The translations under genes were made by a program, and so were the position numbers. Shown here one piece after another: positions 35,050 through 40,332 of a stretch of DNA of 64,000 nucleotides. How positions within the stretch are numbered: position 1 is the first letter of the stretch; each line of letters opens with the position of its first letter. This DNA comes from Polaromonas sp. YR568. Lineage in GTDB: Bacteria > Pseudomonadota > Gammaproteobacteria > Burkholderiales > Burkholderiaceae_C. The stretch lies in contig NZ_FPBM01000008.1 in the NCBI RefSeq assembly GCF_900116715.1, positions 124,001 to 188,000 on the forward strand, read 5' to 3'. Under the pieces are notes generated by a model. The model saw nothing but the letters and a program-made list of their open reading frames with translations, made no database searches and was not told the origin of the DNA.

Positions 35050-36054
35050 ATGTTTTCCTATCGCCACGCCTTTCACGCCGGCAACCATGCCGATGTGCTC
35101 AAGCACACCACGCTGATCGCGTTGATGAAGTACCTGACCCAGAAAGACACGGCCCTGACCGTGATCGACACCCATGCGGGTGCAGGCCTCTACCGCCTTG
35201 ACGGCGATTACACCGAAACCAGCGGCGAGGCCCAGGAAGGCATTTTCAGGCTGCTTTCCCCACCGGTTTCCGATTCGAAACCGGCCCCAGCCCAATCACA
35301 GCGTGCGCAAGCAGCTCCTAAAACCGTAGCAAATCCCGCTACCACCAAACCGGCCAAAACCCCGGCAACCTGGGCCCCCGCCCTGCAGGACTACATCGAC
35401 CTGCTGCGCGGCCTGAACCCCCAGTTCGCCGAAACCGGCGACCTGGCGCACCTGAAAATCTACCCCGGCTCGCCGTTTATCGAGCAGCAATTCCTCAGCG
35501 GGCGCGACAAACTCAAGCTGTTTGAGCTGCACCCGACCGACTTCAAGTCGCTTTCCGGCAACATCGAGCAACTGGGCGTCGGCCGCCAGGTCGCCGTGGC
35601 CCGTGAAGACGGCTTTGAGGCCCTGAAAACCTTTCTCCCCCCGCCGGCCCGCCGCGCCATGGTGCTGTGCGACCCCAGCTATGAGATGAAAAGCGACTAC
35701 GGCCGCGTGGCCACCTGCATGGCGGATGCCCTCAAGCGCTTTGCGACCGGCACTTATGTGGTCTGGTACCCCATCATTCCGCGGCCTGAGGCCCATGATT
35801 TGCCGCGCAAACTCAAAACCCTGGCCGTCAAAAGCGGGCGGAGTTGGTTAAACGCCGCTTTAACCGTCAAATCGAGCAAGTTAACAACAGATACCAGCGG
35901 AGAGGTGATCCGGCCTGGCCTGCCCGCCAGCGGCATGTTTGTTATCAATCCGCCCCACACGCTCAAAGCCAACCTGCAGGAAGCCCTGCCGCAAATGGTC
36001 GCGCTGCTGGGGCAGGACCGCAACGCCGGCTTCACGCTGGAACACGGCGGCTGA
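35050..36054 (+). CDS. rlmJ: 23S rRNA adenine-2030 N6-methyltransferase
   Basis: RlmJ methylates A2030 of 23S rRNA. The 334-residue protein begins with the diagnostic MFSYRHAFHAGNHADVLKH and has the SAM site DTHAGAGLY. The catalytic motif reads DPSYEMK where E. coli has DPPYEMK. About 35 extra residues, low in complexity and rich in Pro, Ala and Lys, lie at about 76-113, after EGIFRLL. Part of that insert is encoded by an interspersed repeat (35279-35327). Otherwise the protein aligns along its length with E. coli RlmJ (280 residues). Confidence 0.94.
   Translation: MFSYRHAFHAGNHADVLKHTTLIALMKYLTQKDTALTVIDTHAGAGLYRLDGDYTETSGEAQEGIFRLLSPPVSDSKPAPAQSQRAQAAPKTVANPATTKPAKTPATWAPALQDYIDLLRGLNPQFAETGDLAHLKIYPGSPFIEQQFLSGRDKLKLFELHPTDFKSLSGNIEQLGVGRQVAVAREDGFEALKTFLPPPARRAMVLCDPSYEMKSDYGRVATCMADALKRFATGTYVVWYPIIPRPEAHDLPRKLKTLAVKSGRSWLNAALTVKSSKLTTDTSGEVIRPGLPASGMFVINPPHTLKANLQEALPQMVALLGQDRNAGFTLEHGG
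35279..35327 (+). repeat. Interspersed short repeat, copy inside rlmJ
   Basis: The copy contains GTGCGCAAGCAGCTCCTA followed by AAACCGTAGC and aligns with the intergenic copy at 26257-26306. It is in frame and encodes about 16 residues of the RlmJ insertion. Confidence 0.75.
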
Positions 36055-36238
36055 GCGTCGCGGCTTCACCGTCAGTGCCCCAACGCCGGCGCGTCGGGTC
36101 CAAGCACGTTTGCAGCGGCACGCTCTTGTGTTTTCATGTCTTTACCGCCGCAGTGAGTTGTGGCAAGGTTGCCTGTAACTTTTCTTGTGCCCGGCACCAC
36201 CTTCACCCCTCCCAATTCCACCGGCGTTTCACGACCTC

Positions 36239-38248
36239 ATGCCCGCTCAGGCCCAAACCATCCCTCCAGCCACCGCCGGCGCGGCGGGCCAGGGGCTGCG
36301 TGCCAACGACAAATCACCCGGCCAGACGATGACGGCGCAAGAAATGGAAGCCGAAATCGCCCGCCAGGTCGCGCTGCGCACCCGCGAGCTCAGCGCCTCG
36401 CTGGCGCGCTACCAGACCATGGTCGACCTGGCGACCGAAAACATCTGCGTCGGCCAGGACGGCCTGCTGCGCTTTGCCAACCCGCCCTGCCTGGCCTTGC
36501 TGGGCACGCAGGCCGCCACCATGGCCAGCCGGCCCATGATCGAGTTCATCCACCCGGAAGACCGCGAGTTTGTCTCCGGCAAGCACAAGCTGCGTGCCGC
36601 CGGCAACTTCGTCCCGGCCTTTGAGGCACGCTTTCAGCGCGACGACGGCACGGTGTCCTGGGTGGAAATCGCCGGCGTACTGGTGGACTGGGAGGGCGCG
36701 CCGGCGGACCTGTTTTTCCTGAAAGACGTCACCGAGCGCAAAAAGCTCGAGGCGCAGACCCGCTCCGCCGCCGAGCGTTACCGGGCGGTGGTGGAAAACG
36801 TCAACGACGTCATCCTGGTGGTGCAAAAAGGCATCGTGCGCTTTTCCAACGCCAGCGCGCAGGCCATGTTCAATCACACGCTCACCGGCCAGCCTTCGCT
36901 GCATTTGATCCACCCCGACGACCGGCCCATGGTGCAGCGCCAGCGCGAGCTGATGCAGTCGGGCACCCTGGTCAGCGCTTATGAGGCACGCTTCATCACG
37001 CCGCCGTCCGAAGCCATGGCGCCGGATTTGCGCACCGGCTGGGCCAGCATCTACGGCACACGCATCGAATGGGATGGCGAGCCCGCGCTGCTGGTGCTGA
37101 TGTCCGACATCAGCGAACGCCGCCGCCTGGACGAAGAACTCAAGAGCGCGCTGACGCAGCGCGAAGCCATCCTGGAGACCACCGCCGTCGGCGTCACCTT
37201 CCTCAAGGGCCGGCGCCACCAGTGGCTTAATCGCACGCTGGCCACCATGCTGGGCTACAGCCCGGCCGAGTTGCTGGGCCAGGAAACACGCGTGCATTAC
37301 CCCAGCGACGAAGACTTCGAGCGCATAGGCGCCCTCGCCTATGCGCAGATCATGCAAACAGGCCTCTTCTCGGCCGAGGCGCGCATGCGCCGCAAAAACG
37401 GCGAACTGATCTGGGTGCAGCTCGATGGCTCGGCGCTGGACCGCAGCCAGCCCGAAGAAGGCTCGGTCTGGACCTATGTCGATATCACGCGCCGCAAAGA
37501 GGCCGACGAGGAAACCCGGCGCGCGCTGGTGCGCGAGCGCGAGCTGGGCGAGCTCAAAACCCGCTTCGTCTCGATGGCCTCGCACGAGTTCCGCACGCCA
37601 CTGGCGACGATTCTTTCGTCGGCCGAATTGATAGAGCACTACGGAGAGAAGATCACCCACAGCGAGCGCCAGGACATCATGGCCGACCTGGTGGTGGCTG
37701 TTAAACGCATGCAGGGCATGCTGGAAGACATGCTCACCGTCGGCCAGGCCGATGCCGGCAAGCTCAGGCTCAACGTCAAGCCGCTGGACATCGCCGCGCT
37801 GTGCCGCAAGCTCGTGACCGAGATGCACACCAGCGACGCCGGCCAGCACGCCATCGAATTTGAAGCGCCCGTCGGCCACAAGGCGTTTTCGCAGCTGGTC
37901 ATGCTCGATGAGCGGCTGATCCGGCACATCGCCAGCAACCTGCTGGCCAACGCCTGCAAATACTCGCCCGCCGGCAGCGTGGTGGTGCTGACGCTGGACC
38001 GCCTGCCGGGCCAATCCGGCGACCACCTGATCCTGCAGGTCAGCGACGAAGGCATAGGCATACCCACGGCAGACCTGCCGCGCCTCTTCGAGAGTTTTCA
38101 CCGCGGCTCCAATGTGGGCAACCGGCAGGGCTCCGGGCTGGGCCTGGCCATCGTGAAGCACGCTGTCGACCTGCACCACGGCAAAATTGAGGTGGCCAGC
38201 ATGCCGGGAGCCGGCACCCGGTTCACCGTCAGCCTGCCGCTTTCCTGA
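36239..38248 (+). CDS. Soluble sensor histidine kinase with three PAS domains
   Basis: The protein has about 669 residues and no membrane segment, so it senses a cytoplasmic signal. Three PAS domains lie at about residues 60-180, 190-310 and 315-430; the third reads VTFLKGRRHQWLNRTLATML. HisKA follows with phospho-acceptor His449 in SMASHEFRTPLATI, then a complete HATPase domain (NLLANACKYSP, GIGIPTADLPRLF, GSGLGLAIVKH). No haem or flavin motif is obvious. The start is uncertain (36239 by ATG; TTG at 36185 is possible). The gene for its presumed partner begins 8 bp after its stop. Confidence 0.92.
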   Translation: MPAQAQTIPPATAGAAGQGLRANDKSPGQTMTAQEMEAEIARQVALRTRELSASLARYQTMVDLATENICVGQDGLLRFANPPCLALLGTQAATMASRPMIEFIHPEDREFVSGKHKLRAAGNFVPAFEARFQRDDGTVSWVEIAGVLVDWEGAPADLFFLKDVTERKKLEAQTRSAAERYRAVVENVNDVILVVQKGIVRFSNASAQAMFNHTLTGQPSLHLIHPDDRPMVQRQRELMQSGTLVSAYEARFITPPSEAMAPDLRTGWASIYGTRIEWDGEPALLVLMSDISERRRLDEELKSALTQREAILETTAVGVTFLKGRRHQWLNRTLATMLGYSPAELLGQETRVHYPSDEDFERIGALAYAQIMQTGLFSAEARMRRKNGELIWVQLDGSALDRSQPEEGSVWTYVDITRRKEADEETRRALVRERELGELKTRFVSMASHEFRTPLATILSSAELIEHYGEKITHSERQDIMADLVVAVKRMQGMLEDMLTVGQADAGKLRLNVKPLDIAALCRKLVTEMHTSDAGQHAIEFEAPVGHKAFSQLVMLDERLIRHIASNLLANACKYSPAGSVVVLTLDRLPGQSGDHLILQVSDEGIGIPTADLPRLFESFHRGSNVGNRQGSGLGLAIVKHAVDLHHGKIEVASMPGAGTRFTVSLPLS

Positions 38249-38256
38249 GGACCTCC

Positions 38257-40332
38257 ATGACCCTGATCCTGATCGTTGAAGACGACGACGCCATCCGCAA
38301 CAACATCGTGCGGCTGCTCAAGCTGGAAGGCTTTGAGACGGCTGCGGCGCCCGACGGCCGGCAGGGCCTGGAGCTCGCCCGCAGCAGCCGCCCCGACCTC
38401 ATCATCTCCGACGTCGGCATGCCCGGCATGAACGGCTTTGAATTGCTGGACGCAGTGCGCGCCGACCGGGTGCTCGTCAACACCCCCTTCATGCTGCTGA
38501 CCGCGCTGGACGACCGCGAAAGCATGCGGCGCGGCATGACGGCCGGCGCCGACGACTACCTCTCCAAGCCCTTTAACCGCGCCGAGCTGCTCGACGCCGT
38601 CAACGCGCAGCTCAAGAAAAAGCAGCGGGTGCGCGAAGCCATCGACTCCGGTGTGGCCGCCGGTGAAGAACGCCTGCGCGCCGCCTTTGCCAGCCGCATC
38701 AGCGGCGGGCGGCCCGCCGAGGTGCCCATCGACATCCCGCCCAGCGCGGAGACCGAAGAACTCTCCAGCGCCACCGTGCTGGTCGCCAGCATCCGCAACT
38801 TCACGTCGCTGGCTGAAAAGCTCAATGCCGCGGAAGTCTCCCTGCTGCTGACCGAGTACTTCGAGCGGACCTCCGAGTCGGTGCTGAAAAACAGCGGGCG
38901 GCACATCAAGTTCATCGGCGACGGCCTGATGGCGGTGTTCTCCGACACCCTCACCGGCTCGCCCCTGCCGGCGTCACGCCGCGCCATCTCCGCCGCCCTG
39001 GCCATGGCGCTGGCCACGCACGAGTTCCGGGACTGGCTCAACCAGCGCTTTGGCGAGCGCGCCCTGCCACCTTTTGCCATGGGTGTGGGTATTCACAGCG
39101 GGGCAGTCACACTGTGCCAGCTGGGTGCGCAGCAAACCCGCGAGCTCACGCCCGTCGGCGAGACCGTGACGCTGGCCGCGCGCCTTGAAAGCGCGTCTGA
39201 GGAAATGGGCTGGACGGTGATGGCCAGCGAGCACACGCTGGGCCAGGCCGGCCCCGGCATCGAAACAGGCACCCACACTTCGCTGGTAGTGCCCGGCAAG
39301 AACCTCGCCATCGATGTGGCGGAAGTCACGGGCCTGGTCACCACCATGGAAGACAAGATCCACGGCATGGCCAGCCTGACCGAACGCGCCGGCGAAATCA
39401 GCGATGCCGTGCGGGCCAACTCCGACATCACCGCGCGGGCCGTCAAGAGCGCGCTGGACTCCAAGCTGTCGGCGCTCAAGGGCCTGCGCTTTGACGCCAA
39501 CACCGAGCCTGTGCGCCTGAAGGGCTACCGCATCACACGCAAGATAGGCGCCGGCGGCATGACCGAGGTCTACCTCAGCGAGCGTGAATCCGACGGCCTG
39601 CCCATCGTGCTCAAGGTGCTCGATTCACGCGGCCAGGAGGCCTCCGAGCACCTGGTGCGCTTCATCCAGGAATACGCCCTGCTCTGCAAGATCGACCACC
39701 CGCACGTCATCAAGATTTATGACCAGGGCTTCACCGACGAGCACGCCTACATCGCGATGGAATATTTTGAATGCGGCGACCTGCGCGGCCTCTTCGGCCC
39801 CAACCTGGCGCGCGAGCAGGCCGTCACGGTCGCGCGGCAGATCGCCGAGGCGCTGTCCGCGATCCACGAGCACGGCATCGTCCACCGCGACATCAAGCCG
39901 GAAAATGTCATGCTGCGCGCCGACGGCAGTGTGGCGCTGGCCGACTTCGGCATTGCCAAGTCGATGCTGCAGGCCCACAGCATGGGCCTGACGCAGACCC
40001 ACCACGGCGATGTGGTGGGCACGCCCTATTACATGAGCCCCGAACAGGCCACCGGCCGCAAAGTCACGGCGCAGTCCGACCTCTACAGCCTGGGCGTGAT
40101 GTTCTTCGAAATGCTCGCCCACAGGCGGCCCTACATCGCCGAGTCACTCGAGCTGCTGCTGGCCAAACACCTGAACGCCGAAACCCCGCCGCTGCCGCCC
40201 CAGCATGTCGCCATGCAGGGCATCGTCAACAAGCTCATGGCCAAAAATCCGAATCACCGCTACGAGTCCGCCGCGGCCTTTCTCGACGACCTGAACCTGG
40301 TGGCGCCACCCGCACCTGAGATCAGCCTGTAA
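38257..40332 (+). CDS. Hybrid protein: receiver + degenerate nucleotide cyclase domain + Ser/Thr protein kinase
   Basis: The 691-residue protein has three parts. Residues 1-120 are a receiver domain with Asp52 in DLIISDVGMPG, Thr82 and Lys104. Residues 165-340 are a class III cyclase homology domain. Its second metal Asp is kept (Asp222 in FIGDGLMAVF) and so is Arg309, but the first metal Asp is Ser178 (VASIRNF) and the transition-state Asn is Thr305 (VGETVTLAARL). Residues 424-685 are a eukaryotic-like kinase with GAGGMTEV, Lys453, HRDIKPEN (Asp545, Asn550) and DFG (Asp563), all intact. The upstream histidine kinase presumably phosphorylates Asp52 and so controls Ser/Thr kinase output. The target is unknown. 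Confidence 0.92.
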   Translation: MTLILIVEDDDAIRNNIVRLLKLEGFETAAAPDGRQGLELARSSRPDLIISDVGMPGMNGFELLDAVRADRVLVNTPFMLLTALDDRESMRRGMTAGADDYLSKPFNRAELLDAVNAQLKKKQRVREAIDSGVAAGEERLRAAFASRISGGRPAEVPIDIPPSAETEELSSATVLVASIRNFTSLAEKLNAAEVSLLLTEYFERTSESVLKNSGRHIKFIGDGLMAVFSDTLTGSPLPASRRAISAALAMALATHEFRDWLNQRFGERALPPFAMGVGIHSGAVTLCQLGAQQTRELTPVGETVTLAARLESASEEMGWTVMASEHTLGQAGPGIETGTHTSLVVPGKNLAIDVAEVTGLVTTMEDKIHGMASLTERAGEISDAVRANSDITARAVKSALDSKLSALKGLRFDANTEPVRLKGYRITRKIGAGGMTEVYLSERESDGLPIVLKVLDSRGQEASEHLVRFIQEYALLCKIDHPHVIKIYDQGFTDEHAYIAMEYFECGDLRGLFGPNLAREQAVTVARQIAEALSAIHEHGIVHRDIKPENVMLRADGSVALADFGIAKSMLQAHSMGLTQTHHGDVVGTPYYMSPEQATGRKVTAQSDLYSLGVMFFEMLAHRRPYIAESLELLLAKHLNAETPPLPPQHVAMQGIVNKLMAKNPNHRYESAAAFLDDLNLVAPPAPEISL

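Follow-up and report, generated by a model that had tools for sequence, protein, structure and literature searches.

In Polaromonas sp. YR568, a soluble sensor histidine kinase (HK) with three PAS domains is encoded directly ahead of a 691-residue protein, here called HYB, in which a receiver, a class III cyclase homology domain and a Ser/Thr protein kinase domain follow one another. Both genes lie in a 64,000-nucleotide stretch of contig NZ_FPBM01000008.1 (positions 124,001–188,000) that we analyzed as a whole and refer to as the window; features are numbered by window positions. Bacterial His-Asp and Ser/Thr phosphorylation have mostly been studied separately, and we think it rather probable that the two are joined here, with one or two HKs phosphorylating Asp52 of the HYB receiver, which would control the HYB kinase, and with the predicted pseudo-cyclase as a relay. 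The soluble PAS kinase beside HYB (the linked HK) would autophosphorylate on a His, from which Asp52 would receive the phosphate, and an unlinked membrane HK with 7TMR-DISM domains probably also feeds Asp52. The change in receiver state would then be carried through the cyclase homology domain and the linkers, and this domain, in the clade of the window copy, would be a pseudo-enzyme serving as a structural or nucleotide-sensing relay; the C-terminal kinase would be switched and would phosphorylate Ser/Thr residues on targets. We infer the phosphotransfer, the direction of control, the use of one receiver by both HKs and the targets from gene order, intact residues, the loss of cyclase residues from a domain still under purifying selection, the similar trees of HK and HYB where the two are linked, and the finding that HYB and the 7TMR-DISM HK tend to occur, and to be lost, together.

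An earlier, sequence-only reading of this DNA had described a soluble three-PAS HK followed 8 bp later by a receiver–cyclase–kinase protein of 691 residues, and both open reading frames (ORFs) with this spacing and, by Pfam, these domains are indeed present (Table 1). The HK frame is open upstream to a TTG at 36185 and contains an inner ATG at 36329, and its start codon is not settled. As in orthodox sensor HKs, a HisKA domain with its His is combined with a HATPase_c domain that has both the N-box (Asn572) and G boxes (at 603 and 631). A membrane-span test with 19-residue windows found no such segment in either protein (top mean hydropathy 1.19 for HK and 1.26 for HYB). The residues on which the same reading had relied, i.e., Asp52, the HRD Asp545, the DFG Asp563 and Lys453 of HYB, are in place, as is His449 of the HK.

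Table 1. Positions of the HK–HYB pair, its domains and key residues, and related features elsewhere.
Feature	Position	Strand	Basis or remark
HK: linked soluble sensor histidine kinase, PAS-PAS-PAS-HisKA-HATPase, 669 residues from ATG	36239..38248	+	ORF, Pfam
HisKA (dimerization and histidine phosphotransfer, DHp) domain of HK; phospho-acceptor His449 at 37583-37585	37556..37759	+	Pfam PF00512, residues 440-507
HATPase_c domain of HK	37907..38242	+	Pfam PF02518, residues 557-668, 3.6e-30
HYB: receiver, predicted pseudo-cyclase, Ser/Thr kinase, 691 residues	38257..40332	+	ORF, Pfam
Receiver of HYB; phospho-acceptor Asp52 at 38410-38412; Asp9, Thr82, Lys104 present	38266..38604	+	Pfam PF00072 (Response_reg), residues 4-116, 2.3e-29
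Class III cyclase homology domain of HYB, predicted inactive	38755..39297	+	Pfam PF00211 (Guanylate_cyc), residues 167-347, 2.6e-15
Ser178 in place of first metal-binding Asp	38788-38790	+	Alignment to 1wc0, 1wc1, 3r5g
Thr305 in place of catalytic Asn	39169-39171	+	Alignment to 1wc0, 1wc1, 3r5g
Ser/Thr protein kinase domain of HYB; Lys453, Glu472, Asp545, Asn550, Asp563	39526..40269	+	Pfam PF00069 (Pkinase), residues 424-671, 1.6e-48
RlmJ-like gene (presumed)	35050..36054	+	Upstream neighbor
7TMR-DISM HK, 942 residues, membrane: 7TMR-DISM domains, two PAS, HisKA, HATPase	G000:C8:341048-343873		
HYB relic	L293:2496-2997 (G255); matching site in L294 (G203)		

The HYB receiver has the acid pair, the phospho-acceptor Asp, the Thr/Ser and the Lys that mark response regulators (diagnostic residues as listed in the accessible part of PMC12632262). 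At the other end of the protein, the Lys, Glu, HRD Asp and DFG Asp of Hanks-type kinases all fall inside the Pkinase domain, and the solved kinases nearest to it by sequence are StkP and PknB. HYB has no HisKA or HATPase match in Pfam and is therefore not a dual kinase of the HstK type, which holds both kinases in one polypeptide. An AlphaFold model of HYB from a three-row alignment had a mean predicted local distance difference test (pLDDT) score of 39 and was not used.

Class III cyclase sites are built from two metal-binding Asp residues, a catalytic Asn and Arg, and a purine-site Lys. The central domain of the window HYB matches the cyclase sequence profile but lacks the residue set of an active enzyme, having lost the first metal-binding Asp and the catalytic Asn (Table 1) while retaining Lys218, Asp222 and Arg309 as well as Thr298 at the substrate position. 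Its nearest solved relatives by sequence are 1wc0/1wc1 and CyaB (3r5g), with a phmmer value of 6.9e-19 against 1wc0. When the window copy is compared with those of two other Polaromonas genomes (G099 or G231; G and L numbers are our labels for genomes and loci), the ratio of nonsynonymous to synonymous substitution rates (dN/dS) is 0.10–0.12 for the cyclase domain, 0.12–0.14 for the receiver and 0.45–0.52 for the linker of residues 123–165. Because active-site residues are lost and dN/dS is nevertheless this low, the domain is a predicted pseudo-cyclase that is kept, though not as a standard cyclase. The sequence-only reading had held that no second messenger is needed, which fits the window HYB with its broken cyclase site, but 20 of 38 HYB proteins keep the full cyclase set.

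These 38 proteins, a sample of the whole HYB family, are the window copy and 37 matches at E 1e-100 from draws of genomes of the same family, genus and order, where HYB was found in 12/200, 12/61 and 16/399 genomes, respectively. Per genome, 5 (family), 19 (genus), 2 (order) or 3 (class) candidates were scored for HYB and 4 (family) or 14 (genus) for the 7TMR-DISM HK, and absence from a genome means not found at that candidate depth; gene calls at fetched loci are rough and ORF-based. A draw of 369 genomes from the class at E 1e-95 matched HYB in the window's own genome only. In a pattern-based scan of all phyla, the best 80 of 574 matches included whole-length HYB twice, both times in Polaromonas, and none of eight inspected among the remaining 78 had receiver, cyclase and kinase in one frame. 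A plasmid collection gave no HYB match at E 1e-60, and two viral-contig candidates were rejected as matching in the receiver part only.

Among the 38 HYB proteins, the kinase set of Lys, Glu, HRD Asp and DFG Asp is intact in every one, and Asp52 and Lys104 are both present in 32. The other six comprise two that have no receiver region (G210, G562), one that starts at a contig edge (G394b) and three with a substituted receiver and an intact cyclase (G316, G298, G383). The full Asp/Lys/Asp/Asn/Arg cyclase set is missing from 18 proteins, including G394b at its contig edge and two with only a Lys-to-Arg change (G198, G562). On the HYB tree, the window copy sits in a 10-row clade of broken cyclases (100/99), and such cyclases recur in the lineages of G070 with G105, of G210, of G394a and of G436. 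Across the proteins compared, the kinase is thus always kept, and the cyclase has decayed several times, the window copy included.

Some proteins that match HYB have other architectures. The HYB homologue of G210 (L147:7899-9476, reverse strand of the locus), which lacks a receiver, stands directly behind an RlmJ-like gene. Receiver–cyclase paralogues in the window genome (contigs C6 and C10) resemble HYB in the receiver and cyclase part only; the one on C6 (L210:8606-9718, i.e., G000:C6:128606-129718) is 35% identical over the matched part, has an altered cyclase site, and the gene after it matches HKs weakly. A 1992-residue open frame from Calothrix (L069:3019-8994) matches a Ser/Thr kinase close to its start and a receiver close to its end, and shows no match to a cyclase.

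Within Polaromonas, the linked HK adjoins HYB in 3 of 13 carriers (the window genome, G099 and G231), where it sits between HYB and the gene that we take to be RlmJ-like. In G231 it is deduced from 46 readable nucleotides before HYB that resemble the HK 3' end, with the stretch upstream reading as N; a giant upstream protein fused to HYB there (open frame of 3355 residues) was rejected for the same run of N. In the other 10 carriers, HYB lies directly behind the RlmJ-like gene with gaps of 20–69 bp. Searching the flanks of all 38 loci with a hidden Markov model (HMM) placed an HK core within 3.2 kb of HYB in 17, and 21 of the 22 HK cores detected in the flanks fall into this zone, which makes up 43% of the flank sequence. 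Outside Polaromonas these HKs are found upstream of HYB on the same strand (G580, G400, G638, G070), divergent from it (G083, G113, G064) or downstream (G261, G310, G431, G354, G394, G105, G436, G316), with the hybrid HKs downstream being of a different type from the linked HK. An apparent HK–HYB fusion in G400 (970-residue frame) was rejected, as the HK match lies in another frame and belongs to a neighboring gene.

The core of the linked HK forms a clade with the HYB-adjacent HKs of G580, G400, G083, G113 and G064 (95/82 and starred in a tree of 50 rows), and the branching order ((window, G099), (G083, (G113, G064))), (G580, G400) is the same for HK and HYB, with the inner fork on the HK side at 94/83 and 90/81. 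The pairing therefore looks old, since the HKs with which the linked HK clusters adjoin HYB in five other genera and its branching follows that of HYB; on the simplest reading, the HK was later lost in most of the clade of the window copy. A lack of conserved linkage, which the sequence-only reading had named as a refutation of its proposal, applies only locally: the linkage is patchy within the genus, but the pairing recurs across genera. The idea that the 7TMR-DISM HK was copied to give the linked HK was rejected (p 0.0002 in the approximately unbiased test, p-AU).

A reduced form of the linked partner occurs in genus g48, where G164 (L128:7354-8061) and G047 (L129:7344-8051) encode, 24 bp before HYB, a 235-residue PAS-HisKA protein without HATPase. 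Its PAS domain shares 58% identity with the first of the three PAS domains in the linked HK, its His motif is intact, and the ratio of nonsynonymous to synonymous differences (pN/pS) between species is about 0.11. As annotated, this protein presumably could not phosphorylate itself and would depend on a second kinase or else work as a phosphatase.

The second putative input, the 7TMR-DISM HK, is encoded in the window genome beside PhoD-like, mfd and HAD genes with no adjoining receiver gene (L193). Its full-length form is present in 10/12 HYB-positive genomes of the genus vs 0/49 HYB-negative ones, and it is present in eight of the ten Polaromonas genomes that have HYB but no linked HK; in the genus, it tracks HYB better than the linked HK does. 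The two genus misses are G249, whose contig breaks off within the HAD gene that adjoins mfd, before reaching the HK site, and G210, a genome 79% complete with the receiver-less HYB. In the family draw of 200, the kinase is found in 7/7 genomes with HYB of at least 60% identity and in 0/188 without HYB. To place these states on a phylogeny we used Mfd trees of 29 and 52 rows. The input for the larger one included 34 of the 49 HYB-negative genus genomes, taken by completeness, and four HYB-negative family genomes picked for partial HK matches; of 54 rows fetched, two short ones were dropped, and G210 and G246 gave no Mfd match. HYB changes state five times on the tree of 29 rows and six times on that of 52. 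In the smaller tree, HK agrees with HYB in 4/4 independent contrasts in most random pairings, with none opposite (median p 0.125). Of 200 random pairings on the larger tree, 174 have all five contrasts in agreement and the other 26 have four in agreement and one without a difference, and no contrast disagrees. G203 and G255, which sit among carriers on the tree and whose listed completeness is 100%, hold HYB relics with the same internal deletion (Table 1), and the 7TMR-DISM HK is gone from their mfd site, with about 39 of its codons remaining in G255.

Around the 7TMR-DISM HK itself, the PhoD-like phosphatase gene (L193:8457-10145) adjoins it in 8 of 16 fetched loci with that HK and may be a regulated neighbor. 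In G035, HYB and the 7TMR-DISM HK lie about 11 kb apart on one contig, and between them is a gene with a Ser/Thr kinase match (L203:4875-6842, 31% to the HYB kinase).

Several observations weigh against a pathway fed by these two HKs. Ten of the 13 Polaromonas carriers do not have the linked HK. In 21 of the 38 loci, including that of G231 whose stretch reads N, an HMM that was seeded in part with HKs from these same loci picked up no HK core in the 3.2 kb around HYB. The linked-HK clade reaches 94/80 and is not starred in a reduced tree of 35 rows, from which 15 rows of the larger one had been removed (second matches, the hybrid HKs that lie downstream, and G070's linked HK, which is distant), and the linked HK of G638 falls outside the group, with a single clade of all eight not being rejected (p-AU 0.194). 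As for the 7TMR-DISM HK, five family carriers of a distant HYB (41–50% identity) lack it; these and G210 are outside the Mfd tree and would count against co-occurrence. Among HYB-negative family genomes, the HK match of G009 is interrupted where a contig ends, so that full length cannot be judged, and four others match in the C-terminal part only. Naive Fisher tests of co-occurrence give 7e-10 and 3e-10 while ignoring relatedness, whereas the median sign test on the 52-row Mfd tree gives p 0.0625, and the comparison covered HYB and this HK without control genes. The losses in G203 and G255 may be one event, because their HYB deletion breakpoints are shared.

These points bear on four other explanations. 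The co-occurrence of HYB and the 7TMR-DISM HK could reflect shared ancestry or habitat instead of function, as would fit carriers that cluster on the tree, the sign test, the five distant carriers and the lack of a control gene. We find this conceivable though doubtful, given that no independent contrast disagrees, that a relic HYB and a missing HK coincide in two genomes that are listed as complete and nest among carriers, and that the HK has no adjoining receiver gene in L193; it concerns the second HK only and overlaps with the others. If adjacency were incidental, the linked HK would serve another receiver, and HYB would be partnered by the 7TMR-DISM HK alone or by no HK. The scarcity of the linked HK in Polaromonas, where the 7TMR-DISM HK tracks HYB, speaks for this idea, which we nonetheless judge unlikely because the linked HK sits in the tree with HYB-adjacent HKs from other genera and from another family, in the branching order of HYB, and because its placement with the 7TMR-DISM HKs is rejected.

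Control might also run in reverse, with the receiver only docking HYB to the HK and the kinase phosphorylating the HK or another regulator as Ser/Thr feedback. Phosphorylation of response regulators by Ser/Thr kinases has been documented (accessible part of PMC12189002), and the kinase is still kept where receivers are substituted or absent (G316, G298 and G383; G210 and G562). Docking alone, however, would not need Asp9, Asp52, Thr82 and Lys104, all of which the window HYB has, nor the Asp52–Lys104 pair in 32 of 38 proteins, and this version seems to us no more likely than incidental adjacency. Finally, the cyclase domain could still be active, or nucleotide binding could be the main signal, with the nucleotide tuning the kinase. 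The 20 proteins with a full cyclase set, the residues that the window copy retains and its low dN/dS are in line with this, but the replacement of a metal-binding Asp and the catalytic Asn in the window copy and its 10-row clade, with more losses elsewhere, makes it quite improbable. Compared with these explanations, control of the HYB kinase through Asp52 remains our preferred reading: the kept kinase and receiver residues of the HYB family and an HK that branches like HYB support, in part, the interpretation first drawn from this sequence; the local linkage of the two genes is not general.

Known systems share parts of this arrangement. In Pseudomonas aeruginosa, the HK PA2824 phosphorylates the receiver of PA3346 and so controls Ser/Thr phosphorylation of another protein, much as proposed for HYB, but the output of PA3346 is a Ser/Thr phosphatase and not a kinase, and the available portion of the source mentions no cyclase domain (PMC12189002). 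PKN2 of Myxococcus xanthus unites a Ser/Thr kinase with a cyclase-like domain whose cyclase specificity is unclear; unlike in HYB, the kinase is N-terminal, a membrane segment is present and no receiver is described in the part of the source at hand (PMC1262709). According to the same excerpt, cyanobacterial HstK-type dual kinases also tie an HK to a Ser/Thr kinase, yet within one polypeptide with GAF, whereas the link between HK and HYB would be a receiver on a separate protein. "CheY-AC" response regulators have a receiver ahead of a class III cyclase domain, as far as the accessible text goes (PMC1183210), and HYB differs from them by its added C-terminal kinase and its broken cyclase active site. 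The TOMM kinase/cyclase fusion model (TIGR03903), whose name lists no receiver, combines kinase and cyclase in one protein and matches HYB with its kinase part; at 127.4 bits against a cut-off of 705.75, HYB is not a member. Because the receiver–cyclase–kinase order is absent from PA3346, PKN2 and HstK as described in the excerpts available, we regard HYB as a variant of response regulators with enzymatic output. Among the matches listed in an open-access literature search, titles and beginnings of abstracts named no single protein with receiver, cyclase and Ser/Thr kinase, which does not establish absence from print.

A broader and more tentative possibility is a many-to-one module of Burkholderiales, in which soluble PAS and membrane 7TMR-DISM kinases would converge on one receiver–Ser/Thr kinase. 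A once-working cyclase would repeatedly have turned into a pseudo-enzyme relay, the receiver would decay in other branches, and inputs would trade places around a never-lost kinase; the PAS-DHp protein of genus g48, to which the linked kinase would be reduced there, has no ATPase and would then have to be charged in trans, with the 7TMR-DISM kinase as one candidate, serving as a step of phosphotransfer or of dephosphorylation.

Cross-talk between His-Asp and Ser/Thr phosphorylation is described, in the accessible part of PMC12189002, mostly as a Ser/Thr kinase acting on a response regulator, and HYB would be a direct wire the opposite way, from His-Asp signaling to a Ser/Thr kinase. One survey of two-component proteins dropped entries annotated as serine/threonine kinases (according to the available part of PMC4558063), and such filtering would hide HYB-like proteins. 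With its cyclase domain intact in some members and broken in others, always beside an intact kinase, the HYB family forms a natural series that lets the role of a pseudo-cyclase be tested.

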